Positions 252 to 15,416 of a stretch of DNA of 21,947 nt are shown in pieces (within the stretch, counting starts at the first letter, position 1; each line of letters opens with the position of its first letter). The translations under genes were made by a program, and so were the position numbers. Source of the DNA: a bacterium (lineage in GTDB: Bacteria; B130-G9); assembly GCA_021160245.1 (NCBI GenBank), contig JAGHCW010000135.1, forward strand, positions 1 through 21,947. The letters are read 5' to 3'. The notes below the pieces were generated by a model. That model worked only from the letters and a program-made list of their open reading frames with translations. It made no database searches and was not told the DNA's origin.

Positions 252-680
252 TTAAATGTTTTTTGTGCTGTTGCGATCTATGAAGTATTGGCCGTGCGAT
301 CCCAGGGTGAATCCATTGCAGAATCCTGGATAGTCCTTCAACCGATAGGTTGTTTTGATATCTAAAGCGAATTTTACACGCGCGTCCTGTTTCGAAACAA
401 ACGATAGGTCAGGATAGTAATTCTGGTGGTCAGCGAGCACGATATAGTAGCCAGCTTGGTTGGCGAACTCCAGCAATTTGGGGAAAAGATGGATTTCAAT
501 GATTTTGGAGACGATCTTTGTGTCAGCCGATATCGTGTAGAGGTTCTTATAGACGTCAATGAACCCCTTTATCGTCCATTGCTTGTCATCGGCTTCCACA
601 TAAGAAATCAAACTCTCGACAAAAGCCGAGAGGCTCGCCTTGAACTCAGCCTTCATGGCATCCTTATTCTCTGTCGGCAT
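252..680 (-). CDS. EcoRV-family type II restriction endonuclease, N-terminal part ending at an in-frame TAA
   Basis: This 142-residue frame aligns with the first half of the EcoRV endonuclease (245 residues, cuts GATATC), compared with the EcoRV sequence from memory. The catalytic set is intact: E62, D91 (in NYYPD) and D107/K109 (in ALDIKTTY) match EcoRV E45, D74, D90 and K92, all at a constant offset of 17. DTK before the first glutamate and QN before the YPD motif also match. The conserved FTLG...STKNI stretch follows, and the frame then stops with TAA at 252-254, where EcoRV continues. The ATG at 680 has an AGGGGAG Shine-Dalgarno about 7 nt upstream. Taken alone, the product has the active-site half but lacks the recognition loop and C-terminal subdomain, so it is unlikely to cut DNA. 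The rest of the gene is in the same frame at 1-251. No companion methyltransferase lies in the window. Homology is very likely; whether any protein is functional is open. Confidence 0.85.
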   Translation of the reverse strand: MPTENKDAMKAEFKASLSAFVESLISYVEADDKQWTIKGFIDVYKNLYTISADTKIVSKIIEIHLFPKLLEFANQAGYYIVLADHQNYYPDLSFVSKQDARVKFALDIKTTYRLKDYPGFCNGFTLGSHGQYFIDRNSTKNI

Positions 681-833: not shown

Positions 834-2141
834 TCAATCGATGACGAGGTCAAACACGTCTATTGGGCCGATGAAATTCATCGTGTCTCGTAGTGTAATC
901 GCGGCATAGAACCGATAAGTTCCTGGCGGTATGAGCGACGCGTAGCCCTCAGCTATGACGCCGTCAAAGCCAAAGCCTCGGAAAAGGTCAACGGGGTACG
1001 GGTCCATGACATTGCTCCAATGTGGCCAGAATTGCAGTTTGCCGTTGAGCTCCATCGCCACGTACACATCTACGCAAAGAGGCTCGCCCGAGTTTTCCAG
1101 CCTTGCTCCGGCCATGATCTTCGAGCCACTTGCCATATTGATGAGATATATCGATTGTGACGGTGGGCCATCGCCAGAGATACGCGTGAGTCCATTCGGG
1201 TGTCTCAGCCAAACGTTGCCCGAATGATCGATTAGCATCTGCCTTATGTCGGTGCTCAGTATTCCGCGGGACGTGTCGAAGAGCTCGGTAGCGTCTCGGG
1301 CAAAGTGAGCCACGAAATGATCCGAGGCCGCCCAAACGGTCCCATCCGCGGCGACAACCAGATGATTGTACATCGGTTCTTGTTCGTAGAACTCTGGATA
1401 GTGGCCGGAGAAGGTCATGATCTTCCTGTCGGAAAGAAACCAGAGCGTGTCGTTTCCATCCAGCGTGGCGGGATAGCTTGCATCATTGGACACGCCGTAT
1501 CCCTGACTGAGCCTCTCCAACACGGTTCGGGTCCCAAGATGCACGAGCGAGACGCCATCCCCCTTTACGCCCAGCCAAGCTTTCTCTATCGAGACAATCA
1601 GGGCGGAATTGATCGGGCCGCCTGGGGGAATGTATCTGCTTATCGGCTCGGAGGACGAAAGCTCGACAATCTCGGAGGTCTCGGGCTCATCCTCGCCGTC
1701 CCAAAGCACGGTGAATAGGTTCCCTCGCGCGTCGAACTGCAGTCCGTCGCAGCCCGTAGATTGTGGAATCTCGAGGCCCGAATACGAGAGTCCGTTCTGC
1801 TCATTGAAATAATATAGGAACCTCTGACATGAAATCCCATCTTCCGCTCCCTGCTGAAAAACAAGCATCTGCCCTGATGGGCTGAAATAGACGTCCGCGC
1901 CAAAGTCCTGAAGCAGGGCGATGTGTCCGTTGAATGGGACATCCGAAACCGCATCACCGAGTACTTTCACGATTCTCGGAGGGTGCCCGAGGCAGAGCCA
2001 GACCGCGCCATCATGCCCAATCCCCATCTCGTGTGTGGTGTCCTCCCCCTCAAGGAACGTCGTAATCTCTTGTGCCGAGATCGGCGCCACAATCAAGATA
2101 ACTGCAAACAGAGAAATGTTCAGAAAACCCCACCTTCGCAT
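834..2141 (-). CDS. Secreted seven-bladed beta-propeller protein with C-terminal module
   Basis: The product is a predicted exported protein of 435 residues with no recognised enzyme motif. A signal peptide (MRRWGFLNISLFAVILIVAP, then ISA before the probable cleavage) opens the protein. Seven propeller-type repeats follow, marked by DG/SG-x-V/L-W-like turns near residues 44, 88, 138, 184, 229, 266 and 307, a spacing of about 37-50 and enough for one propeller. Residues about 329-435 form a module shared with three neighbours, including VDVYVA (357-362) and FWPHW (371-375). The open frame extends upstream to 2255 into the previous gene. ATG 2141 was chosen because GGAGGAG lies 6 nt before it and the signal peptide starts there. 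The gene lies 61 bp after the large subtilase on the same strand and may be cotranscribed with it. Such propellers commonly bind ligands or proteins; the partner is unknown. Confidence 0.82.
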   Translation of the reverse strand: MRRWGFLNISLFAVILIVAPISAQEITTFLEGEDTTHEMGIGHDGAVWLCLGHPPRIVKVLGDAVSDVPFNGHIALLQDFGADVYFSPSGQMLVFQQGAEDGISCQRFLYYFNEQNGLSYSGLEIPQSTGCDGLQFDARGNLFTVLWDGEDEPETSEIVELSSSEPISRYIPPGGPINSALIVSIEKAWLGVKGDGVSLVHLGTRTVLERLSQGYGVSNDASYPATLDGNDTLWFLSDRKIMTFSGHYPEFYEQEPMYNHLVVAADGTVWAASDHFVAHFARDATELFDTSRGILSTDIRQMLIDHSGNVWLRHPNGLTRISGDGPPSQSIYLINMASGSKIMAGARLENSGEPLCVDVYVAMELNGKLQFWPHWSNVMDPYPVDLFRGFGFDGVIAEGYASLIPPGTYRFYAAITLRDTMNFIGPIDVFDLVID

Positions 2142-2178
2142 GGCCATCTCCTCCCATTTGCCTAATACGAAAACACTC

Positions 2179-2194
2179 CGTGCAATCCAGCACG
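2179..2194 (-). terminator. Weak hairpin between the large subtilase and the propeller gene
   Basis: On the minus strand CGTGC and GCACG form a 5-bp stem with a 6-nt loop, soon after the stop codon at 2203-2205. A TTTT run follows 5 nt beyond the stem. The stem is short and the T run displaced, so at most this attenuates transcription into the downstream propeller gene. Confidence 0.25.
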
Positions 2195-2202
2195 ATTGAG
2201 AA

Positions 2203-5200
2203 CTAATAAACGTAAACGCCCTGTTTTGCCGCGTCCGTCTGCCCAGCGCCATCAATTACCTCAACCGCCACTTCGAATCCCCCGGAATATGGAAACCTCA
2301 TCTCCATGATCGGCGACTGACCATAATCGGAATCCCACAGACCATCAGCATCGAAGTCCCATCGGAACCGCAGCCCGTCCATCGGGGTGATGTCGTCAAA
2401 CGAGGCGGAGGCGTCAAAAATAACCGGCTCGTCCACCGCGGCGATCATCGGTGATGCGCCCAAAGACGCGTAGGGATGAAGGTCAAACTGAGGAACGATG
2501 CTGAAGCCTTTTCGCGCCGGCCCGCAGACCACCTCGCCCGATAGGTCGTAGAGCACAACTTCCGCGAGCCAAAAGCCCTGAAGGCTCATCGCCTGATCGA
2601 GATCGCTTATCACAGTATTCACGATGGGGAGCATCAGCGGCTCCTTCTGCGCGAAATCAACAGACATGAAGCTCGGCAAGGCTGACCAGTCGGGGTAATA
2701 TGCTGATATTCCCCCTGACGAGATAAGGCCACAGGTCAGAAGATACTCTTCGCCAATGAGGTTCCCCGGCGTTATTTTGAGGCTTATGTCCACCGGGCTG
2801 TTGACCCTAAACTCCTGCGAGTTGCAGTAGAGTTTGATCTTCGGCTCGCACCCCATATCACCTATCAGCGTAAAGTCATCGACGCATGTGTATCCTACCG
2901 GGGCATCGGAGCTTGACTTCGCCCTGAACCTAAACCTGCACTTCTCGGAATTCGTCGAGAATACGGCTACAACCCGATTCCATCGCCCGTCAACATGATG
3001 AGCCATGTCAAATGGTGTGATATCCACCCACTGATCTCCGGGATATGGCGCCGCCTCAACCGACATTGGGACAAAGGTTGACGAGTGCTTCTCATAGAAG
3101 CTGATGGTCATTGCGTCGGAAGCCCATAGAGGCTGGGACATCAGGACGGCGTCTAGCCGCCCAACGTCTTTCTTGCGTTCCGCCTTGAAATAGCCGGCTT
3201 CACCGTCAGCGCCCGCACTCGCACACCACTGCCAGATATCCTCATCCGGCCGATAGACATCTTTCACCGAGCCGCGCATCCACCCATCAGAGTCTGAATA
3301 CGTCATGTGATATTCTATGCGTGGCTGGCCCATCGTGGTAAAAAACTCCTCCTCTTCCGAGTCGTTCGTCGCGACGTTCCCAACCGTATCGAACATGTTT
3401 ATGATGAAATGATAATCCTCGCAAGCCCTCATACCGGGAATCAACATGGAGAAATGCTCCTGTGGCCCACCGGCGTCAAGCGAGGCGCTTTCACCCAAGT
3501 TCACCGCCTCATAGCGCAAAAAGCACGTCACCGGTCTTGAGACGTCCCAAGACGCCAGAACATGATCGGCGCCAAGCTGCTGCGCGCGGAAGCTCACAAT
3601 CTCGGGCCTTTCGCAATCCGCCCAGGCCCGCTGCATAAGCATCAACGGTGTCTTTTCAGCACCGTGCTCCTCGTCCAGATACACAGCCGTCAGGCAATCG
3701 TTGCTTTCCACTTTGATCGAAGCTCGCGTTCCTATCGCATCGCCATCTGTAACCTCAATGCTTCCGACGAAAACTGCGCTGTCGCAGCCCTGTTCATTGA
3801 GCGTCAAAGTAGCGCTATCACCGGCAAAGAGAGATGAAATACTCACCTCAGATGTCTCAGTCACATCCGGGTCGCGATTCAGGTCGAGGTCGATGACCTC
3901 AATGCCGAGCTCCGAACCGCAACACCCAACGAACTTCTTATCAAGCTCAAGCGTCCCGGAATGACAGTCCCAGAGACCATAGATGACAAGATCATCCAAG
4001 TACCAGCCCTCATCGGTGGTGGAGTCGTCCGTGTGCATTCTGAATCGAAGTGCGGAAGGCTCATCGAATTCGGGCAAGTCTATTTTCACCTCCTGCCAAC
4101 TATTAGAATACCCGTTAAACGTCTCAAGCTTCTTCCAGGACGATCTGGTCGGATCGAATACCTCCACATAACCATAGTCATAGCCGCTCTCAAGCGAGTA
4201 GTACGTCTGGAAGGTCAACTTGGACCCCTTCAGCCACGACATCGAATCCAGCAGAAGTACAGAATCCGACATGTCGAAGTAATTGCCGCTTTCTCTGCCC
4301 CAGAACCAAGAGTGGGACCCCGATTTGCTCCTGCGCTCGGACAGGTGCCAGAGGTCCTGGCCATAATTCGCTTCATGAGTCCAGACGCCCTCACCTTGCT
4401 CACAGTCGTCGTCGAGGACTGTAATCGCGCGCAGCGTCTCGAATTCGTAGAAAGAACCATTATTATCGAGCAGACGGTAGTTGCCTACAGCGTCCCACAT
4501 CTCAAGGTAAAACTCGTATGTGGCGCATTCCTCAAGATTGACCACATTGACCTCGTGCGAGGTGTGGAAATTGATGTCATCCATCATCACAATCAGGTTC
4601 TCTGAATCCACAAACGTCAGAGAGCATCGACTCAAGGTGTCTGTACTCCATTGGATGCAGGCGACTTCTGCCGATGCGTAGAGAATCTGATAATCCAGAA
4701 TCACTGGCGCCTCGCAGTCCAATTCAACTGAGGCAGTTGGATATTCATCGACGGGCCCCACAGGGGAGGGGTCCACGTATGTCAGAACAAGCGAGTCGCC
4801 GTGCTCAACCCGAATTGTGCCAGGCGTGCCATCGGACGAGAGAGAAACCTCGCCGCAGAAGCGAGGTGAGTCCGTCGAAACCTCAGTCAATGAGACGCTC
4901 GTCTCATAGCCATCGGGCATCCTTGTTAGATCGATGCTGACACTCTCCGCCGATTGCGGGTCCACGCCCAAGTCGCTATCCATCAGCGTTACAAGCACCG
5001 TTTGGCCGCAATTATAGAGGCTATTGTCTGTTTGCAGCACTCCCTTTGTGCAGTCGCCCCTCGATAAGATATAGCAGTCGTCGATGTAGCAACCCTCGTC
5101 CGTGGTGTAGCTGTCAGAGGTGAACCGGAACACAATGCTGATTGTTTGACCTTCATAATCGCCAAGCGCATATTGGAATTGACGCCATTCACGGTCATAA

Positions 5201-8200
5201 CCCGTAAACGTAAGCTCATGTATCCTAGCGTCCTGACCGTCCTGCCTGACGTAAACGCGCAGATAGTCGTAGTTCGCCTCTGTGGCATACCAGGTCGTGA
5301 ACATCAGCTTCGCGTTGGGGCCGACCAGAATCTCTGGAGATATAAGGTCTGTTCTCCAGCCATTGCCATATCCCCCAGATGACTCGGCGCCGCAGTACCA
5401 GGAGCCGCTGCCAGTGATGGCCTTGCGCGTGCTTCTGTGCCACACCTCGCCACTCGGCGCCTCGGAGAACCAGCCGTCGCTTTCGAATGGCTCGCCACCT
5501 GTATAGGCTTCGGTCATTGAAGTGGAGGTCTCGAACATGTAGAACTCGCCGGCGTTGTCATAGACTGAGATGTTGCCGTACATGTCCGTCAGCGTGAGCT
5601 TAAAGAAGTAAGATGTGCATTGATAGAGATTGTCTATATATAAGTCGTGCGCATTATTGAAGAACTCGCCACTTTCGACCGTAGCCGCATCTTCAGGAAT
5701 GTCCCAGCAGTCGATCACCGCGGAGCATCGCTCGTTCGCCTCAACATGGAAGCATATCCGGCCAGGGCCATCTTCCTCAGCTGTGAGCTTCTCAAGAGAA
5801 GGCCCCAAACAGTCGGTAGTGGCGAAACACCACGCAAGAACATCTGTCCCGCCCATGCCATCATCCGCATCTGTGTAAAGCGCTCCAAAAACATCGTCAT
5901 GATGGACCTGAAGGGCGCCGGGAGCAGGATTCTCAATCGGGGTGAGCATGAATGACCCCTCAAAGAAGCCAAGCTTGTCCTCAACGGGCAGTAATTCGAC
6001 TTTGATACTGTCCTCAGGCTCGTAGCTAGTCGAGACCCAAACCGACGCCGCAGTCGCCTCTGCGAGGTCTATGTCGCCAAGAGTAACGTCCACCTCAGCA
6101 TCGCAACGATATGTGGCCTCTGAGAAACGAACCCAGCCCCTCGGACCGACATCCAACGCGTTGTCAATCAAAAGCGAGAATGGCTGGCCTAATCCGTCAG
6201 TACCCGGCGTGGCGTCGGTCGTAAGCTGGTGCGCCACAACTCGTATCTGATACTGGACGTCTGGATGCTCTATGAAGACACACTCCACGTTATTGAGCCG
6301 ATCAGCAGAGCCCCCCGGGCGCGAGAATCCATTCTCGAAATTGTTGCCCGAATAATCCTGCCAGCTGGCGTCAGTGACGCTCAGGTCGAGATCGTTCACA
6401 AGCGCCGGCTGAGCATGAAGCGCGCCGGGAGGGTCCGTCCAGACGAGTGTAATCCTCAGCGGCTCGTCGATTGAGGCGGGGTTGATCGTGATAAGAAACT
6501 CCTCGCCCGTCTCCGTCAGCTCGACCTCCTCATCAAAGAATACGCGCTCCCTGTCCGGGTCGAGCATTCTCAAGAGATCAATCCTTCCCCAACCCTCGTT
6601 ATTGTTGGGTATTGCCGTGTTGCCCGGGTCCGGCATATCGATAGCGGTCCCGACCATAAAAGCGTGAACCATCGACGGAGACGGGACCATATCTGTCTCA
6701 CCCTTAAGCATCTCAACAAGCAGCGCCGCGCTGCCGGCCGCCGCCGGACAAGCCATACTCGTCCCAGAACAGTATTCGTGAAAATCGCCAAAGCTGCCAT
6801 AACACCAGCCGGGATACGACTCTGAGGAGAGCGCCGAGATTATGCAGTCGCCGGGCGCGCACACATCCGGCTTCAGCCGGCCATCCTCGCACGGCCCGCG
6901 CGAGCTGAAATCCGCAACACTGTCAAAATTATCGCAGCCCTTCTCCGGCCGCTGATTCTCTGTCGCGCCGATGATTATCGTGTTTTTCGACTCGCTCGGC
7001 GAGCCAATTGTGCCGGAGCCCGGTCCGTCGTTGCCCGCCGCCCTAATGGCAATCAGCCGCTGGGTTCCGGCCAGCCCCGGGTCAACATCGAGCATTCCCT
7101 CATCCCACTCGATGCAGGTGGTGGTATAGCCCTGATCCGAATAGTAACCATCTCCCCAACTGTTGCTCTGAATCAAGGCCCCCGCTGCATACGCATCGCC
7201 TATGATCTCCATCGTCGAAACCGGTGACCAAGTCGCCAGAAGATTCTGGTTGACAATAAGCGCTTCTGGGGCGATGCCGAGGCCGACCTCGAAGCCGGCA
7301 GAATCCGTTACCGAGCTCCCGTTGTTCCCAGCAACAACGCCTGCACAGTGCGTCCCGTGGCCATCATAATCCCGGCCCGAGTTCCCCTCGTAGTCCACGA
7401 CGTCGATCACGCGGCCGCGAAGGTCTGCATGCATATTGTCAAAGTCCGTGCCCGTGTCAACTCCCGTATCGCAAACCGAAACGGCAACCCCCGCGCCCGA
7501 GAGACCAACCTGCTGAAGGAATTCACGATAGCCAACCGCCGTCTGACCATCGTCACCCCTCCGAAGACTCATGATCGAATCCTGCATCTCATCGACCTTC
7601 TCAGGCCTAGTATAAAGACCGATAGCCAGCACACCGTCAATGGCGGCAACATCCGGAACGTACCCTGTGTCGCAGCGGAATTGGAGAAAGACTCTGGATG
7701 CCGTCAGTGCGGGCTCACCGAGTATCTCACCGAACTCGCTGAGCTTCTGCATCGTACTCTGGCAAGATTCAGTCTTGTGAAGATGCACATTCAGAATCTG
7801 CTCACCGAGCGGCTCAAGTAAAACGCGCTCGACCTTAAAAGCTGGCTCAAACGGAGCAACTGCCCGCACAAAGGGCAACCGCGACATCTCCCCTACTGAC
7901 ATCGCGCCGCGCTTCACCAAAACGCCATAGTCAGGCACAAACTGAACAAACTCAGCGCCAGAAGACTTCAAGGAATCCAGAAAGTCGCTCCTTAATGGGC
8001 CTATGTATTGGACGATGACATATTGGGCGGCCCCGGAACCTTTCTTCGAACTACTCAAAGCATCTGGCATTGCCGGAAGGCCCTCGACTGGGTCAAAAGA
8101 ATAGCCCGCGATCTTCAGATGAATGCTCTCAGAAATCGCCTCATAGACGACACCTGCCGAGCTCAAGGAAGCCAAGTTTTCAGAAGCCAGCCTCGCTAGA

Positions 8201-8403
8201 ACAAACGAGCCGTAATCGATCACAACACGGTCCGGGTCATCAATCACGTCTGGCAACGCGCCTCGCGCATCCCGCTTAACGATGATGAGTTCATGCCCTT
8301 CGTTACCGAGGCTCAATGCGCTCTGGGCAAAGCCCCCCCAACAGACCACGCAAAATAGAGCGAGCAGCAGGCAACTAAAACGATGTGAGGAATTGGTAGG
8401 CAT
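2203..8403 (-). CDS. Giant secreted subtilisin-like (S8) protease with three repeated domain triplets and a PKD domain
   Basis: A 2066-residue exported serine protease. From ATG 8403 the order is: signal peptide (1 to about 28); propeptide-like region (about 30-290); S8 catalytic domain (about 300-615) with Asp312 (CDTGVD), His349 (DGHGTHCAG), oxyanion Asn458 (AAGND) and Ser549 (SGTSMACP); and a P-domain/pre-peptidase-like sandwich (about 620-755, ITLVWTDPPG, NDLDL). Then comes a unit repeated three times (about 766-1117, 1118-1482, 1483-1855). Each unit has a Cys-containing beta domain, a fibronectin III-like domain and a jelly-roll/MAM-like domain ending in a DD motif (GCYIDDCYI, GWYLDDLVI, TCVDDFTL). 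The shared C-terminal module (about 1856-1972) and a PKD domain (about 1975-2066, FRWDFDADG) end the protein. The open frame reaches 8523, but GAGGAG 7 nt before ATG 8403, the signal peptide and a promoter at 8494-8520 favour the shorter start. Many paired cysteines suggest disulphides outside the cytoplasm. The substrate is unknown. Confidence 0.95.
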   Translation of the reverse strand: MPTNSSHRFSCLLLALFCVVCWGGFAQSALSLGNEGHELIIVKRDARGALPDVIDDPDRVVIDYGSFVLARLASENLASLSSAGVVYEAISESIHLKIAGYSFDPVEGLPAMPDALSSSKKGSGAAQYVIVQYIGPLRSDFLDSLKSSGAEFVQFVPDYGVLVKRGAMSVGEMSRLPFVRAVAPFEPAFKVERVLLEPLGEQILNVHLHKTESCQSTMQKLSEFGEILGEPALTASRVFLQFRCDTGYVPDVAAIDGVLAIGLYTRPEKVDEMQDSIMSLRRGDDGQTAVGYREFLQQVGLSGAGVAVSVCDTGVDTGTDFDNMHADLRGRVIDVVDYEGNSGRDYDGHGTHCAGVVAGNNGSSVTDSAGFEVGLGIAPEALIVNQNLLATWSPVSTMEIIGDAYAAGALIQSNSWGDGYYSDQGYTTTCIEWDEGMLDVDPGLAGTQRLIAIRAAGNDGPGSGTIGSPSESKNTIIIGATENQRPEKGCDNFDSVADFSSRGPCEDGRLKPDVCAPGDCIISALSSESYPGWCYGSFGDFHEYCSGTSMACPAAAGSAALLVEMLKGETDMVPSPSMVHAFMVGTAIDMPDPGNTAIPNNNEGWGRIDLLRMLDPDRERVFFDEEVELTETGEEFLITINPASIDEPLRITLVWTDPPGALHAQPALVNDLDLSVTDASWQDYSGNNFENGFSRPGGSADRLNNVECVFIEHPDVQYQIRVVAHQLTTDATPGTDGLGQPFSLLIDNALDVGPRGWVRFSEATYRCDAEVDVTLGDIDLAEATAASVWVSTSYEPEDSIKVELLPVEDKLGFFEGSFMLTPIENPAPGALQVHHDDVFGALYTDADDGMGGTDVLAWCFATTDCLGPSLEKLTAEEDGPGRICFHVEANERCSAVIDCWDIPEDAATVESGEFFNNAHDLYIDNLYQCTSYFFKLTLTDMYGNISVYDNAGEFYMFETSTSMTEAYTGGEPFESDGWFSEAPSGEVWHRSTRKAITGSGSWYCGAESSGGYGNGWRTDLISPEILVGPNAKLMFTTWYATEANYDYLRVYVRQDGQDARIHELTFTGYDREWRQFQYALGDYEGQTISIVFRFTSDSYTTDEGCYIDDCYILSRGDCTKGVLQTDNSLYNCGQTVLVTLMDSDLGVDPQSAESVSIDLTRMPDGYETSVSLTEVSTDSPRFCGEVSLSSDGTPGTIRVEHGDSLVLTYVDPSPVGPVDEYPTASVELDCEAPVILDYQILYASAEVACIQWSTDTLSRCSLTFVDSENLIVMMDDINFHTSHEVNVVNLEECATYEFYLEMWDAVGNYRLLDNNGSFYEFETLRAITVLDDDCEQGEGVWTHEANYGQDLWHLSERRSKSGSHSWFWGRESGNYFDMSDSVLLLDSMSWLKGSKLTFQTYYSLESGYDYGYVEVFDPTRSSWKKLETFNGYSNSWQEVKIDLPEFDEPSALRFRMHTDDSTTDEGWYLDDLVIYGLWDCHSGTLELDKKFVGCCGSELGIEVIDLDLNRDPDVTETSEVSISSLFAGDSATLTLNEQGCDSAVFVGSIEVTDGDAIGTRASIKVESNDCLTAVYLDEEHGAEKTPLMLMQRAWADCERPEIVSFRAQQLGADHVLASWDVSRPVTCFLRYEAVNLGESASLDAGGPQEHFSMLIPGMRACEDYHFIINMFDTVGNVATNDSEEEEFFTTMGQPRIEYHMTYSDSDGWMRGSVKDVYRPDEDIWQWCASAGADGEAGYFKAERKKDVGRLDAVLMSQPLWASDAMTISFYEKHSSTFVPMSVEAAPYPGDQWVDITPFDMAHHVDGRWNRVVAVFSTNSEKCRFRFRAKSSSDAPVGYTCVDDFTLIGDMGCEPKIKLYCNSQEFRVNSPVDISLKITPGNLIGEEYLLTCGLISSGGISAYYPDWSALPSFMSVDFAQKEPLMLPIVNTVISDLDQAMSLQGFWLAEVVLYDLSGEVVCGPARKGFSIVPQFDLHPYASLGASPMIAAVDEPVIFDASASFDDITPMDGLRFRWDFDADGLWDSDYGQSPIMEMRFPYSGGFEVAVEVIDGAGQTDAAKQGVYVY

Positions 8404-8493
8404 CATTTCTCTCCTCGTATGATTGGATGCAGATAGCTCAGGCATAAACTCTGCTCCGTAATATACATTGTGGCCGGCGAGACGCAGGAGTAA

Positions 8494-8520
8494 ATTATAC
8501 AAACCTCGCTGAAATGTCAA
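8494..8520 (-). promoter_or_regulatory. Predicted sigma70-type promoter for the giant subtilase gene
   Basis: On the minus strand TTGACA (8515-8520) and TATAAT (8494-8499) both match consensus, but the spacer is 15 bp rather than 16-18. Transcription would begin near 8487, leaving a leader of about 85 nt before ATG 8403. This argues against the longer open frame starting at 8523. Confidence 0.5.
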
Positions 8521-8799
8521 CACATATCAGCGCTGGGCCGGTCAAAAACGGGCTCCCCATCCAATAGGTGCAGGACGGACTTTCTGGGAGACCGTCCCAT
8601 AGGTTGTATATGCTGTTTATGTAAGGGCAGGCCCTGTCTCCGTCGATCTTTGTACTAGGGCAGACTCAAAGCCAATCCCTACATCGTGGTACCGTCGTTG
8701 AGTTCATCTGTGCCATATTCTATCGAAAACCGACCTATCAGACTGCCTTTCTTGGGTTGTTCATCGAATGCTCGCATCTGATTTTGCCGGAACGCAATC

Positions 8800-8814
8800 T
8801 CGATTGACAATCGA
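8800..8814. repeat. Perfect 15-bp palindrome over the -35 element (possible operator)
   Basis: TCGATTGACAATCGA has 7-bp arms around a central A and contains the TTGACA of the predicted promoter for the 8879 subtilase gene. A dimeric repressor bound here would block RNA polymerase. No regulator gene is visible in the window. Confidence 0.4.
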
Positions 8815-8833
8815 TCATGTCGCGCATTAGGCT
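8804..8833 (+). promoter_or_regulatory. Predicted promoter of the second subtilase gene
   Basis: A perfect TTGACA (8804-8809) is followed after 18 bp by TAGGCT (8828-8833), a weak -10 that keeps the key T, A and final T. The predicted leader is about 40 nt long, ending in GGGAGAAG just before ATG 8879. The -35 lies inside a perfect palindrome, listed separately. Confidence 0.4.
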
Positions 8834-8878
8834 ACATGAGAAACCTGGCCAACATTAAACACGTAGAAGTGGGAGAAG

Positions 8879-11194
8879 ATGAGAAACAAGGTCCTGTTTG
8901 CCGCCCTGTTTTGCTGTATTATTGCATCTGCGTTCTTTCCTGCAAACGCAGCTGAATGTCCTAAACTCGACATCTTGCTGAAACCAATTCTGCGAACGCC
9001 TCTCGCAGAGCCCGTTCAGTTGCGCACTTTCCTGATCGCTCGAGGCATCAGCTTCAGCACAGATGATGGCGCCTTGAAGGTGGGAATGGTCATGAAGGCC
9101 AAGGATGAGTCGAGCGCCTCAAAGCTTGCAGAGGGCGTGCGCCTTCTCGGGGGCAAAGTGGGCTCTGTCTTTAGCAAGTTCGTTACCGCAAGAGTTCCGG
9201 TCTCTGCCATTCATGCTCTATCGGAAATCGAGTCCCTGCAATTTGCCGAGGCGGCGAGGCGCGTTAGGCCTGATCTGAACAAGAGCGTGCCGGCTTGCAG
9301 AGGCGACCTCGCTGGGTGGGGGATTAACCTCTCTCTTCCGTACAAAGGAAGTGGCGTCGTCGTTGGCGTAGTAGATAGCGGCATCGATTGGACGCATCCC
9401 GATTTCTGCAACGAGGACGGCAGCTCGAGGATACTTGCGATATGGGACCAGACATCCTCACAAGACAGCCCGCCTGCCGGATTCTCTTACGGAACCGAGG
9501 TCACTCCACCGTTCTCCGGAGGAACTGGTCTTGACCAGGATGGTCATGGGACCCACGTAATGAGCATTGCGGCAGGAAATGGCAACGCCGGAGCGGGGAT
9601 GTCCGGAATGGCGCCCGCGGCCGACCTCGTTTTCGTCAAAATGTCTTTGATGTATGAGCAGGGGATTGACCACATGCTCGACGGCGTTAATTATATCTTC
9701 CAAAAGGCTAAGAGCTTGGGGCTTCCGGCGGCTGTGAATCTCTCGCTTGGTTTTACGGGTGGCTCTCATGACGGAACCTCGATCGCGTGCCAGGCAATTG
9801 ACGCCTTAACTGGGCCGGGGAGGATAATCGTCAACTCGGCTGGCAATGAAGCACGTTACAGCACTGGTTATGAATACATCTATATGCACGTGGGATTCGA
9901 GGCGACCCAAGAGGAACAGACATTCGCCTTCGCTCTCTATGATGATGAAGGTTCTGCGGAGATTTGGTACGAGCCGCCCGGAAGCATTCAGGTGTCGTTG
10001 GGAGCCACAAGCTCCTTCGGAGATACTGTGGAGCATGGGGTATTTATCCAGCCGGGAGAATCGATTTACGGTCGATACATAGCTGATCCATATTGGGGCC
10101 TAATCTGCCAATATGACATCGACGCAACCGAGACCGCGAATCCTAACAACGCCTCTCGGCACATCATCATAACGCTTAAGCCCGATTGGCTCGCAATGCA
10201 GCTCTTTAAATGGACGGTCACCGTCAAGGGTGACTGCTACTTCGACGCATGGCCCAGCGAGGGCAGCTATATGTTCTTCGTCGGGGAGGGATACGATGTC
10301 CATACTGGTGATAGCAGACTCTCACTTACCTATCCGGCATTCGCCAAGGAGGTCATTACCGTTGGCTCATACGTCTCGAAAAACGAGTGGCAGGACGTTA
10401 CCGGAAGCTGGCAACACTTGCCCGAAGCGAGGATCGGATACATCTCGGACTTCAGCAGCTGGGGCCCGACTAGAAGACCCGAGTTCACAGGACCCAAGCC
10501 CGAAATCTGCGCGCCCGGCCAGTATATTGCAGCCGCGCTCTCGGCCCAGGCCCTTGCCAGTGGCGAGTTCGATGACCGTCGGGAAGTATTGACGCACGAT
10601 TACGATTACGCGCTTTTTGCAGGAACAAGCATGTCAGCCCCTCATGTAACCGGTGCGGTAGCTTTGCTTCTTCAGAACAACCCAGACCTGACGCCGGACG
10701 ATATAGAACAAATACTCGCAGACAGCGCTGTGGCCGATTCGTTCACCGGCGATGTGCACAATGACATCTATGGTTATGGCAAACTAGATATACATGACGC
10801 CCTTCGGCAGGTGGATTCGGGCGGCACGAAGGCTTTTGGAATAGACGTTCAGGCCGACTACTCCTCATACGAGAGCGGAGACGACATGGATATACTTTGT
10901 CAGGCGGCAAACATGGGACCTGAGCGGGCAGTCGATTTTGGGATGGCGCTACTCGACCCAGACGGCGCCCTCTGGTTTTGGCCAAACTGGACGACCGACT
11001 TCCTCGTTATGCGTCTTGTCATTCCCGGAGACTTCCACGCTCGCGACTTCATGCTTGACAGCATCGCAGTTGAGGCCGGCTCCGGTCCATGCACAACGGA
11101 CGGGACATACTACATCTTCGCCGGTTTCCTTGACCCAGATACGGGCCAGGGATTAACTGACCTCGCCATCTCCCCGGTCCAACTTGGGCTCTAG
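8879..11194 (+). CDS. Secreted subtilisin-like (S8) protease with an inserted beta domain and C-terminal module
   Basis: A 771-residue exported serine protease. The signal peptide is MRNKVLFAALFCCIIASAFF followed by PANA. A propeptide-like region runs to about 140. The catalytic residues are Asp166 (VVDSGID), His223 (DGHGTHV), Asn323 (NSAGNE) and Ser584 (AGTSMSAPHVTG), so the triad and oxyanion residue are complete. Asn to Ser spans about 260 residues against about 66 in subtilisin. Residues about 330-490 are therefore an insertion, rich in beta-type sequence, placed like the jelly-roll of clostridial Csp proteases. Residues about 650-771 are the module shared with three other secreted proteins here (VDFGMA 685-690, FWPNW 700-704). 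The ATG has GGGAG 3-4 nt upstream, rather close. The gene is divergent from the giant subtilase and 33 bp before plsY, so readthrough into plsY is possible. The substrate is unknown. Confidence 0.95.
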   Translation: MRNKVLFAALFCCIIASAFFPANAAECPKLDILLKPILRTPLAEPVQLRTFLIARGISFSTDDGALKVGMVMKAKDESSASKLAEGVRLLGGKVGSVFSKFVTARVPVSAIHALSEIESLQFAEAARRVRPDLNKSVPACRGDLAGWGINLSLPYKGSGVVVGVVDSGIDWTHPDFCNEDGSSRILAIWDQTSSQDSPPAGFSYGTEVTPPFSGGTGLDQDGHGTHVMSIAAGNGNAGAGMSGMAPAADLVFVKMSLMYEQGIDHMLDGVNYIFQKAKSLGLPAAVNLSLGFTGGSHDGTSIACQAIDALTGPGRIIVNSAGNEARYSTGYEYIYMHVGFEATQEEQTFAFALYDDEGSAEIWYEPPGSIQVSLGATSSFGDTVEHGVFIQPGESIYGRYIADPYWGLICQYDIDATETANPNNASRHIIITLKPDWLAMQLFKWTVTVKGDCYFDAWPSEGSYMFFVGEGYDVHTGDSRLSLTYPAFAKEVITVGSYVSKNEWQDVTGSWQHLPEARIGYISDFSSWGPTRRPEFTGPKPEICAPGQYIAAALSAQALASGEFDDRREVLTHDYDYALFAGTSMSAPHVTGAVALLLQNNPDLTPDDIEQILADSAVADSFTGDVHNDIYGYGKLDIHDALRQVDSGGTKAFGIDVQADYSSYESGDDMDILCQAANMGPERAVDFGMALLDPDGALWFWPNWTTDFLVMRLVIPGDFHARDFMLDSIAVEAGSGPCTTDGTYYIFAGFLDPDTGQGLTDLAISPVQLGL

Positions 11195-11227
11195 ACAATC
11201 GTATGACGACAATGGAGATCGGATAGA

Positions 11228-11827
11228 ATGATCCTCGGAATCGCTGCCGTCATCGGCGCGTATCTCGTCGGCTCAATACCGTTTGGGCTAATTGTCGGCA
11301 AGATAATGGCCGGAAGCGACGTCCGACAGAAGGGCAGCGGCAACATAGGCGCGACAAATGTCATGCGCGCCGCCGGCAAGACCGCGGGCATCATCACTCT
11401 GCTTCTGGATATAGTTAAAGGATACATTGCGGTTCTGGGCGCTCAGACGCTGGCGCCTCAGCCCAATTCGCTCATTCCGCTCTATGCTAGTATCGCCGTC
11501 CTTTTGGGCCACTGCTTCCCGATATACCTAAGGTTCCGAGGCGGCAAGGGCGTCGCAACCGCGCTCGGCATATTCCTGCGGCTCGCCCCGGTATTAGTCC
11601 TAATCGCGCTCGGCATATTCATCGTGGTGGTCGCGATAACGAGATTCGTCTCGGTGGGCTCTATAATAGCGGTTCTTTCGGTGCCCATCATAATCGGGCT
11701 GGCCGGTGGGAAGGTCTCTTCGATTGCCCTCTCATCCGCGATAGCCGCTCTCGTCATCGCCAAGCACAACAAAAACATTGCGAGATTGATACGAGGCGAG
11801 GAAAACAAGCTGGACGGCTCGAAATAA
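11228..11827 (+). CDS. plsY: Acyl-phosphate:glycerol-3-phosphate acyltransferase PlsY
   Basis: An inner-membrane enzyme that moves an acyl group from acyl-phosphate to the sn-1 position of glycerol 3-phosphate, giving lysophosphatidic acid, the first step of bacterial phospholipid synthesis. The 199-residue length is normal. The family motifs are all present: SGNIGATN (37-44), GHCFPIYLRFRGGKGVAT (94-111, including the Gly-rich phosphate-binding part) and HNKNIARLIRGEE (180-192). About five hydrophobic segments alternate with these loops. GGAG about 9-10 nt before ATG 11228 supports the start. The gene follows the subtilase by 33 bp and converges with a glycosyltransferase gene. PlsX, which makes the acyl-phosphate, is not in the window. 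Confidence 0.97.
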   Translation: MILGIAAVIGAYLVGSIPFGLIVGKIMAGSDVRQKGSGNIGATNVMRAAGKTAGIITLLLDIVKGYIAVLGAQTLAPQPNSLIPLYASIAVLLGHCFPIYLRFRGGKGVATALGIFLRLAPVLVLIALGIFIVVVAITRFVSVGSIIAVLSVPIIIGLAGGKVSSIALSSAIAALVIAKHNKNIARLIRGEENKLDGSK

Positions 11828-11840
11828 AGGATGATATAGA

Positions 11841-11874
11841 TTTAGGACGGTCGCACCTTCTTGCCCCGTCTAAA
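11841..11874. terminator. Hairpin between convergent plsY and the glycosyltransferase gene
   Basis: TTTAGGACGG (11841-11850) and CCGTCTAAA (11866-11874) pair with one bulge across a 15-nt loop, in the 53-bp gap between two facing stop codons. No clear T run follows on either strand; only the A/T ends of the stem do. It may serve as a weak two-way terminator. Confidence 0.3.
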
Positions 11875-11880
11875 AGCGGA

Positions 11881-12636
11881 CTATTTGCGCGCTCGAGGCT
11901 TCAGGTAGAGGGGATCGTGGGTGAGTCCGATCCTCTTGAGGAGGAACCTCAACACAGATATGAGCGTCATCGTCCCATAGACGACAGATCGCTTGAAACT
12001 GATGCTGGACGCCTCGGCCGCGTACCTACACGGAACGGGGACATCGCCAATCCTGAAGCCGAAAAAGACCGCCTGGGTTATAAACTGGCTATCAAATACA
12101 AAATCATCTGAATTGTTCAAAAACGGTATGGTCTCAAGAACATCCCTTCGGTACGCTCGATAGCCGGTGTGCAAATCGCCCAGGTTCTGCCCCAAAGCAA
12201 CGTTCTCGATAAATGTCAGAACGCGGTTAAATAAATACTTATACTTCGGCATCCCGCTATTTAGGGCCTCTGCCCTGGTTCTGATTCGAGAGCCCAGCAC
12301 AACGTCGCAGACATCGTCTTTAATGAAGCCAACCATGAAAGGAACAAGCCTGCTATCGTATTGGTAGTCGGGATGAACCATCACGATGATGTCCGCGCCC
12401 GACTTGAGCGCCTCTTGATAACACGTCTTCTGGTTTGCGCCGTATCCCCGATTCTCATCGTGCACGATGACGCGCAGCCCGAGCTGCTCTGCTATCTCCA
12501 CAGTCCTGTCCGTGCTCTTGTCATCGACCACAATAATCTCATCAAAAGCCTTTCTAGGAAGGTCCTGCACCGTCTTCAGAAGCGTCATTTCAGCGTTGAA
12601 CGCCGGCATCACAACTACAATCTTTGGCCGATTCAA
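11881..12636 (-). CDS. Family 2 glycosyltransferase, polyprenyl-phosphate (DPM1-like) sugar transferase type
   Basis: A GT-A fold enzyme of 251 residues that likely moves a sugar from a nucleotide donor to a lipid phosphate or glycan at the inner face of the membrane. Visible motifs: [10 protein letters not shown] at the start, [10 protein letters not shown] (DD at 38-39, nucleotide binding), [16 protein letters not shown] (88-94, metal/donor site) and [13 protein letters not shown], typical of the DPM1/DPG group. There is no long C-terminal membrane region. The open frame extends to an ATG at 12756, but that ATG lies in the terminator of the upstream gene and has no ribosome binding site. 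TTG 12636, with AAGGAG 6 nt upstream, gives a typical family start ([16 protein letters not shown]). Donor and acceptor are unknown. The gene converges with plsY. Confidence 0.88.
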
Positions 12637-12642
12637 TTGCCG

Positions 12643-12648
12643 CTCCTT
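12643..12648 (-). promoter_or_regulatory. Ribosome binding site that decides the TTG start of the glycosyltransferase
   Basis: AAGGAG on the minus strand sits 6 nt before TTG 12636. A second AGGAG lies just upstream of it. No in-frame ATG downstream has a comparable site before the VVVMPAFN motif. Confidence 0.6.
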
Positions 12649-12735
12649 CTCCTGAATGCCCTCTGCAAACCCGCGCGGAATATGAAGCTTGACCGCGCCT
12701 TCATATCTAAATGGACTTGGAGACGCATTCCGAGC

Positions 12736-12769
12736 AAAAACTCGCGCCGACCACATCGGCCGACGCGAG
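12736..12769 (-). terminator. Rho-independent terminator of the double-propeller gene
   Basis: On the minus strand CTCGCGTCGGCC (12758-12769) pairs with GGTCGGCGCGAG (12741-12752) through 12 positions (10 Watson-Crick pairs plus 2 mismatch/wobble positions) around the loop GATGT. TTTTT (12736-12740) follows at once. It lies about 50 bp after the stop codon at 12819 and just before the glycosyltransferase gene, separating the two transcripts. Confidence 0.85.
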
Positions 12770-12818
12770 TTTGCCTATTTCGGTTGATCTATGCTATTTG
12801 GCTTTCTGACTACTTAGA

Positions 12819-15350
12819 CTATGGAACTGCCGGACCTCTAAACTCCCAGTCGGCCTCTGATATGTCGCTCATAAGTTCAAGCCCCGCCGCATTCGGATCG
12901 GCACAAGCGGCCATCCAAGTGTAATTGCCATAAAGATCTTCATCTTCACCCAGAATGGTGTTAAACAGCTCGACCTTATCGTATCTCTGCCCGGGCTGAA
13001 GAACCATGTTCAGTCCCTCGAATTGGTCGGTGAAATCCGCGGGGAACTTGAAGAACAATAGGCTGCCTAGCGGTGTCCGGATAGCAGTATAGAGCGTGAT
13101 TTCCTGCGGAATCTGCGTATTGTTGGCCAGCGTAAGGAGAACTGATAGCTGCTGACTCGGTATGATGATAGAATTCTGCACCTCTATAATCACCGTAACA
13201 GGAAATTTATTCACATTCGGTCCCGGCATAGAGAGCATGAACGGCAACATTGTGCGGGCGCCATTCAAATCAGTCACGACGAAATCATAGCCATGCAAGG
13301 TCGGAAGCAGAGTGGTTTGGAATTCGTATGTCCCGTCATTGGCCTGACCATCCGCGAGCGTCATTTCCTGTCGGATCCCGTCCACATTGACACATATATC
13401 CGGCTCGACTGCCACTTCCGGGTTCGCGTAACTGACCGAATAGGTGAATACGGTATCCAAAACGCCCGATTGTGGATCAACGGTTCCATCCGCCAAGGAC
13501 GGGAAACTGGGTGAGGTAAATTCCGTGATCCCGGTCTGGCATCCAACATAAACCACGCCACTTGATGTCTGAAGAACCGAGCTGCAAACATCAGTTAGTA
13601 GCCCGCTGAATGCTGACGAGTACCTGACCGATGTGTCCGCGCTGAACGCAACGAGGCCATCCTTCGTCGAGAGATAGATGGCGCCATCGGCCGACGCGTG
13701 GATATCCCTGATCTCGTTGTCTGCGAGCATGCTATCGTGCGTGTGGTATTGCCGCCAGATATTCCCGTCCGTAACGCCGAAGCCGGTCGTCGTGCCAACG
13801 AGTACACTGCCGTCTGCCGCTTCCTCAATGCAGAACACGTTGTCGCCGGGTATGTTGCTATTATTCGTGTCCATGGGGAACCAGAAAGGCTTATTGTAGG
13901 AGAATATTCCCTGCCCATTACTTCCAGCCCAGACCCTGCCGTCGCTAAGAACCTCAATGCAGGTAAATTGAGCAATGGGAGGCAAGTCCGGAACATCCCA
14001 AACGCCATTGCTGAAATAGTGAAGACTGGATGGTGTCATGAAGTTCTGAACAGCAGCCCAAAGCACGCCGTCGGGGCCGTAGCCAAAATCGACGACATCG
14101 CCGGACGGGAAGTTCCCAAGCGCCGAGGAGTAGTTCTCAAAAGCCACGCCATCGAAGTGAGACACACCGTCAGCAGTACCAAACCACAATGAACCGTCCG
14201 TTGCCACCTGAATGGCCGAGACCATATTATTCAGAAGGTCACTATTCTCCGCTGTGTAACTGGTCCAAGTATCGTCATCCTTGCAGACAACGCCTCCACC
14301 TAATATCGCAAACCAGACCTTGCCCTCGTTGTCCTCAACGATTCTGCTAATTTGACCGGACAGCATCGGATGGTGCGAGTGCGGTCGAAGCGTCCATGCT
14401 CCACCGATAAACGATGCCGTTCCGCTAGGGCCTCCTACCCAAAGCGCTCCGTCCGGGGCGAAGCCAAGCGCGCTTATGTTGTTGTCTGGAAGATCGGTTG
14501 TGTCAACATTCATTACCGTCCAATCGGCGCCATCAAAGTGCAACAGCCCAGCAGGATGTCCCGCATAAACATCGCCGGTTGGGCTCACTGCGATTGACGA
14601 GATCATCGGCAGCATCATCGGCGTATTGGTTCCGTCAAACACCTCCCATACATCAACACCATCGAATGAGATGATGCCACCATAAGTCGCCATCCAGACC
14701 TTGCCATCAGGCCCAAATGCAATGTCCCTAACGTTCAGGCCATCTCCAGGAGTTAGCCCACTGTTCGACTCGTCATAAACCGTCCAATCCAAGCCGTCAA
14801 AGAAGCAAACGCCACCCTCTGTTCCGGCCCAGACATTCCCGTCCCCGTCAACCGCTATGACGTTAGTGATGCTAAGCATTGGCGTCCCCAAGATGAGATG
14901 CTTCTGCCAAGAATCACCATCATAGGAATACAAACCATCGGTCGTCCCAGCCCAGACCATCCCATCGGCGCCAATGGCAATCGCCTTGCCACCATCAACG
15001 TCTAGCTCCGAATTCTCCGCCAGATACCGAGTGATGGTTCCATCTGGGAGCCTCGACGCGAAGCCCTTATCCATTGCCGCCCATAGAGTACCATCGGTAG
15101 CCACTGCCACGGCATTCCCGAGCGAGCATGGCAGGCCGTCTGCGCTCGTATAAACGGTGAACTCAGTCGCGCTCGCGTCGTATTCCACCAGACCACCTTG
15201 AGCGGCAATCCAGACGGTATCCCCGTCAAATGCGAATCCATTAGCCGTCACAGGATTGGAGTAGTTAGCCCAATCCGCCGAGGCCATTCCGCCAAAACCG
15301 ATGCAAAAAAACACCGCAAACAGCGTTAAACAACTTGCCATCCGTCCCAC
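12819..15350 (-). CDS. Secreted double seven-bladed beta-propeller protein (two-component-regulator propeller type)
   Basis: An 843-residue exported protein. After a signal peptide (MGRMASCLTLFAVFFCIGFG then GMASA), 14 repeats of about 43 residues carry the signature DGxVWxGTxxGxxxFDGxxW, with the DG turn near residues 42, 86, 129, 170, 215, 259, 300, 342, 385, 427, 470, 513, 556 and 598. Fourteen blades suit two seven-bladed propellers, as in the sensor region of hybrid two-component proteins. Here no membrane segment, kinase or regulator domain follows. An Ig-like region (about 618-706, NDGTYEFQTTL) and the shared C-terminal module (about 714-843) end the protein. The start is taken as GTG 15350, with GGAGG 6 nt upstream. 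ATG 15341, nine bases on, is the alternative; the open frame to 15386 has no such site. A ligand- or polymer-binding surface role is inferred only. Confidence 0.88.
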   Translation of the reverse strand: MGRMASCLTLFAVFFCIGFGGMASADWANYSNPVTANGFAFDGDTVWIAAQGGLVEYDASATEFTVYTSADGLPCSLGNAVAVATDGTLWAAMDKGFASRLPDGTITRYLAENSELDVDGGKAIAIGADGMVWAGTTDGLYSYDGDSWQKHLILGTPMLSITNVIAVDGDGNVWAGTEGGVCFFDGLDWTVYDESNSGLTPGDGLNVRDIAFGPDGKVWMATYGGIISFDGVDVWEVFDGTNTPMMLPMISSIAVSPTGDVYAGHPAGLLHFDGADWTVMNVDTTDLPDNNISALGFAPDGALWVGGPSGTASFIGGAWTLRPHSHHPMLSGQISRIVEDNEGKVWFAILGGGVVCKDDDTWTSYTAENSDLLNNMVSAIQVATDGSLWFGTADGVSHFDGVAFENYSSALGNFPSGDVVDFGYGPDGVLWAAVQNFMTPSSLHYFSNGVWDVPDLPPIAQFTCIEVLSDGRVWAGSNGQGIFSYNKPFWFPMDTNNSNIPGDNVFCIEEAADGSVLVGTTTGFGVTDGNIWRQYHTHDSMLADNEIRDIHASADGAIYLSTKDGLVAFSADTSVRYSSAFSGLLTDVCSSVLQTSSGVVYVGCQTGITEFTSPSFPSLADGTVDPQSGVLDTVFTYSVSYANPEVAVEPDICVNVDGIRQEMTLADGQANDGTYEFQTTLLPTLHGYDFVVTDLNGARTMLPFMLSMPGPNVNKFPVTVIIEVQNSIIIPSQQLSVLLTLANNTQIPQEITLYTAIRTPLGSLLFFKFPADFTDQFEGLNMVLQPGQRYDKVELFNTILGEDEDLYGNYTWMAACADPNAAGLELMSDISEADWEFRGPAVP

Positions 15351-15356
15351 TGCATT

Positions 15357-15361
15357 CCTCC
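15357..15361 (-). promoter_or_regulatory. Ribosome binding site for the GTG start at 15350
   Basis: GGAGG on the minus strand lies 6 nt before GTG 15350. It is worth listing because an out-of-frame ATG lies in the spacer, and the in-frame ATG at 15341 has only GGGACGG before it. Confidence 0.55.
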
Positions 15362-15416
15362 CTCTTAAGTGAGCCTCTATCCACAAACAACAAAATATAT
15401 AAACCCTAACTAACAG

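Follow-up and report, generated by a model that had tools for sequence, protein, structure and literature searches.

What is the stretch of sequence that recurs at or near the C-termini of several exported proteins in this DNA, and what might it do for its carriers? Four such proteins are encoded in the window (the whole stretch analysed, 21,947 nucleotides), each with a signal-peptide-like N-terminus as judged by eye. The 435-aa protein (834-2141, outer bounds 834-2255, minus strand) comprises a signal peptide, propeller-like repeats (Reg_prop, sub-threshold) and the module, whose first copy (FWPHW; 837-1166, minus strand) forms the exact C-terminus. The 2,066-aa protein (2203-8403, outer bounds 2203-8523, minus strand) carries a signal peptide, an S8 subtilase domain, two MAM-like/choice-of-anchor J regions, the module and a PKD domain (PF00082, 6e-43; PF20773, 2.6e-14; NF038128, 1e-13). 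Its segment with YYPDW (2491-2847, minus strand), the probable second copy, is followed towards the C-terminus by the PKD-like domain (2227-2463, minus strand; PF00801, 1.7e-4, slightly below the curated cut-off). On contig C71 of genome G000 and contig C37 of genome G001 there is an open frame (~1,170 aa) containing some ten PKD-like repeats in tandem that are related to this terminal domain.

The 771-aa protein (8879-11194, plus strand) has a signal peptide, an S8 subtilase domain (PF00082, 1.9e-42) and the module, of which the third copy (FWPNW; 10832-11191, plus strand) is the exact C-terminus; an orthologue, L069, has the same kind of ending. When contigs were scanned with this protein, a 'Candidatus Coatesbacteria' contig was found to carry an orthologue followed by plsY, as in the window, which most likely derives from this group. 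The 843-aa protein (12819-15350, outer bounds 12819-15386, minus strand) combines a signal peptide, Reg_prop propellers (PF07494, 2.8e-27) and the module (KFPADF; 12834-13202, minus strand), this fourth copy ending 4 residues ahead of the stop. It scored 86 bits against the PorZ model NF052228 (cut-off 260) in a genome with no SprA, and the match probably reflects merely shared propeller repeats. Beside these genes, an open frame at 252-680 (minus strand), running towards the window start, corresponds to the N-terminal half of EcoRV (PF09233, E 4e-56, profile positions 2-116 of 244) and contains a DIK stretch; beyond an in-frame stop the frame runs on almost to the end of the contig, and the gene therefore seems to be interrupted.

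A search of the window's own genome (a 3.43-Mb draft of 244 contigs, 94.8% complete), seeded with the C-terminal 98 residues of the 435-aa protein, yielded 49 places with E ≤ 10; roughly the top twelve had E-values of 1e-5 or lower. Thirty of these places were aligned, and a test profile was made from copies outside the window only. In a search of the four window proteins, to which the E-values refer, this profile gave 86.7 bits for the 435-aa protein (E 2.6e-28), 64.6 bits for the 771-aa protein (1.9e-21), 55.1 bits for the 843-aa protein (1.6e-18) and 2.9 bits for the 2,066-aa protein; copies 1, 3 and 4 scored 86, 63 and 53 bits. The YYPDW segment and its 50%-identical orthologue L153 were compared with the family as profiles, and the resulting alignment spans 113 columns (P 3e-7, probability 88% in hhalign); judged by this comparison, the 2,066-aa copy is probably a diverged member. 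The proposal of a sequence-only reading that the four proteins share one module thus held, for three through the window-free profile and for the fourth through profile-profile comparison. That reading had taken KFPADF for the weak copy; the order is the reverse, with KFPADF sound and YYPDW doubtful. Nor did its aromatic-Pro hallmark stand, as some 55% of copies have the proline and some 50% the tryptophan. The better-conserved positions, numbered on the 435-aa copy, are G-D (14-15), N25, V-D-x-Y (32-35), P-x-G (41-42) and G82-x-Y84, in a family of highly divergent copies (about 25% identity).

Copies were counted with a 26-row profile at E ≤ 0.1. The window's genome gave 136 matches, and three relatives of the same family gave at least 111, at least 111 and 41. 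Outside the family most genomes had zero copies; five unrelated genomes had 52, 31, 30, 16 and 6. The clustering of four copies in the window, earlier taken as a hint of common function, is a minor point, as copies in the genome are on average some 25-27 kb apart and four or five occur together on some other contigs.

Signal peptides were called by a home-made rule, not a published predictor, with neighbouring open reading frames as the only control. By this rule 72 of 82 complete carriers had a signal peptide, against 39 of 140 neighbouring frames (Fisher P 9e-19). Among the ten that it missed, six have a signal peptide by eye and four are fragments of interrupted frames. Pfam partners among 56 carriers were Beta_helix (18), DUF1565 (11), Reg_prop (9), NosD (9) and FGE-sulfatase (6), with single carriers of a C25 peptidase, a redoxin or DUF3160. 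From their sequences, nearly all intact carriers look exported, as beta-helices, propellers and proteases. A large number of copies on signal-peptide proteins had been proposed as support for a sorting role, and matches mainly in cytoplasmic proteins as evidence against it; the copies are numerous and nearly all on carriers that look exported, and the matches are not mainly in cytoplasmic proteins. Stops or frame shifts interrupt several carriers, mostly of beta-helix type, in some cases within the module (L108:860-1493, L128:1160-1723, L086:5617-6228, L121:1301-1795 and L136:1315-1974); these are either decaying copies or assembly errors.

The fold model, made from the 435-aa copy and three sequences related to it, is an eight-stranded beta-sandwich (pLDDT 72.7, pTM 0.65); the module is thus predicted to be an Ig-like beta-sandwich of about 115 residues. 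The 2,066-aa segment, predicted alone, gave an unusable model (pLDDT 39), and the usable model is that of the 435-aa copy only. Structural comparison (Foldseek, VIA-align) returned Ig-like matches including the Ig domain of a GH2 beta-mannosidase (Z 11.9) and factor XIII. The CARDB structure 3idu also matched (E 3.6e-4, TM 0.60/0.60, 110-116 residues), a likeness that is not specific because other Ig-like folds match too. An Ig-like fold is common and is by itself no sign of function. Families in Pfam, NCBIfam and PHROGs do not cover the module (26 members scanned against Pfam and NCBIfam), and CARDB had zero matches among the 26 at E ≤ 1. Matches below the Pfam cut-off were to DUF11 in 3 of the 26 (best E 0.045) and to MG2 in one (2.9e-4). 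The PDB held no sequence relative, a plasmid search gave no match, and literature on Coatesbacteria and on C-terminal sorting domains outside type IX contained nothing on this module. By sequence it is uncatalogued in the databases checked.

Position in the chain was read from fetched regions around 126 copies in 109 open frames. Where the 3' end was intact (104 frames), the module lay at most 20 residues from the stop in 85, and at most 10 in 82 of those 85. In frames of at least 250 aa it was terminal in 69 of 87, compared with 3.8 expected at random and a maximum of 11 in 2,000 simulations. The five unrelated genomes had it C-terminal in 29 of 31 distinct frames with intact ends, with 0-10 residues beyond it. 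Tandem copies were found at C-termini. The remaining frames had about 15 copies directly behind the signal peptide, preceding FGE-sulfatase-like domains, beta-helices and others, and 4 internal copies. On a tree of 114 copies, built on few columns and weakly supported at many forks, the N-terminal state required 9 changes by parsimony, at least 4 of them forced by well-supported branches; with several changes needed on this tree, the N-terminal copies do not form one separate subfamily. N-terminal modules that are close relatives of each other (identity up to 62%) occur on unrelated partners, which indicates that the module has been shuffled between proteins. Strict C-terminal processing had been called unlikely on account of the PKD tail, and so it appears, with the post-signal-peptide copies and their repeated switches as the main ground; such repeated N-terminal placement speaks against an export signal that works at the C-terminus only. 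Sortase-type tails (LPXTG, PEP-CTERM, GlyGly-CTERM), which combine a short C-terminal motif with a hydrophobic helix and a basic end, were considered and rejected: in C-terminal carriers the chain ends about 0-15 residues past the last beta-strand, with no room for a transmembrane stretch.

A C-terminal module on exported proteins raises the type IX secretion system, whose C-terminal domain is an Ig-like beta-sandwich on Sec-exported cargo (PMC4804311; PMC12618676). Position in the chain, fold class and similar cargo all speak for the module being such a domain, as does the PorZ match of the 843-aa protein. Against this, a model search for SprA found none in G000-G003 or in five other domain-rich genomes (drafts 83-99% complete), although the same search detected it in 129 of the 386 genomes, among them G104 and G120, which have one module copy each. 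Taken by itself, the lack of SprA in domain-rich genomes falls short of a significant anti-correlation (P 0.10 over 6 independent lineages). NCBIfam sorting-tail models, TIGR04183 among them, had no match among 26 module members, and type IX tails numbered none in G000-G002 compared with 67 and 30 in SprA-positive G104 and G120. The lone PorV-like match, confined to G000 and under the cut-off at 28 bits, proved to be a TraF_2-type protein. The type IX rule that the tail is always the last domain also fails, given the N-terminal and internal copies. A type IX identity is accordingly given very little probability, and the module, which occupies the same place in the chain in genomes without SprA, is not a type IX tag. 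In G003, a relative without SprA, a single clear type IX tail was observed (contig C226:3233-3472; TIGR04183, 41.9 bits), which may be contamination, a relic or real.

Three further roles were weighed. We tentatively favour, at a little short of even confidence, a non-covalent docking or surface-retention part that acts outside the cell. Carriers would be made with a signal peptide and, as their sequences suggest, cross the inner membrane by Sec, the lineage having equipped a large part of its exported proteins with the self-contained module at the chain end. Once outside, the folded module would bind one common partner in the envelope or extracellular matrix non-covalently, the binding and the surface partner both being putative, and unrelated enzymes, beta-helices and propellers would thereby be held in the same place, in the manner of SLH, dockerin or carbohydrate-binding modules. 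Docking is favoured because the module stands at an end, and at either end, of unrelated exported partners, has been shuffled among them and can be tandem. A few carriers are lipoprotein-like (by heuristic only); these would need no other anchor and count against docking. The C-terminal preference in the five unrelated genomes likewise exceeds what a plain anchor needs, and it fits an export signal too.

Such a signal, directing carriers through or to the outer membrane by a putative non-type-IX route in diderms without SprA and recognised at the C-terminus, is a less probable role, unlikely on balance yet to be taken seriously. It explains the C-terminal bias better than docking does, the position at the last residues being near-universal in the module's own genome and in the unrelated ones, and the N-terminal copies worse, as these lie where the mature protein begins and have more than one origin. 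Its cargo resembles that of type IX (propellers, beta-helices, one C25 peptidase, subtilases), the copy number in the window's genome is comparable to the tail counts of the two SprA-positive genomes, and type IX tails belong to the same fold class, the Ig-like beta-sandwich (PMC4804311). Outer-membrane secretins were found in all nine domain-rich genomes, so there is very probably an outer membrane to cross, and a lipid A acyltransferase gene lies within the window; secretins are nevertheless common and prove no link. We consider somewhat less likely again an as yet undescribed pathway of outer-membrane export or surface sorting, common to several lineages that lack the type IX translocon, in which the module would be the label on up to ~130 proteins per genome. 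Least probable of the three roles is a passive or ligand-binding end cap that serves no shared sorting function, either a stabilising Ig-like module or a carbohydrate-binding module directed at the substrate of its particular carrier. An Ig-like fold is frequent in glycoside hydrolases, the copies diverge strongly in sequence, and an aromatic strand-turn (F/Y-W-P-x-W) is a type of feature seen on carbohydrate-binding surfaces. A cap would leave unexplained why one family is kept at the chain end of more than 100 unrelated partners and why it expanded in particular lineages, and the partners have no evident common substrate. Of the earlier proposal of a sorting, anchoring or partner-binding tag, the shared tag is supported by the many exported carriers and by the terminal position in five unrelated genomes, with sorting, anchoring and partner binding each a candidate role.

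A module carried by more than 100 exported proteins of one genome and common to unrelated lineages points to a shared system of extracellular placement. Bacteria of this kind are known mostly from metagenomes, and the module profile offers a handle that selects a large part of their surface proteome; the module is also a defined segment for deletion or fusion.

Several known systems resemble the module in part. The type IX C-terminal domain (TIGR04183, type A) is likewise Ig-like, C-terminal and borne by dozens of unrelated Sec-exported surface proteins; the module differs in its length of about 115 positions (72 in the model), in occurring N-terminally as well, and in having neither a match to the model nor SprA beside it. 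CARDB (PF07705; 3idu) has the same fold and size and no sequence match to the module. A G-D...N-x-G strand pattern is usual in CARDB-like domains and is present in the module also; to our knowledge, CARDB is not confined to chain ends. RbmA, the FnIII-type biofilm protein of Vibrio cholerae, gave an Ig/FnIII-like match (Z 10.3, 96 residues) that, at 12-17% identity, is a likeness of fold only. Dockerin, SLH and carbohydrate-binding modules are unlike it in sequence, dockerin and SLH also in fold, and they differ from the favoured docking part in that the acceptor of the latter is putative; in deployment they are alike, as in each case one module recurs on numerous exported enzymes that are otherwise unrelated, at the N- or the C-terminus and sometimes in tandem.
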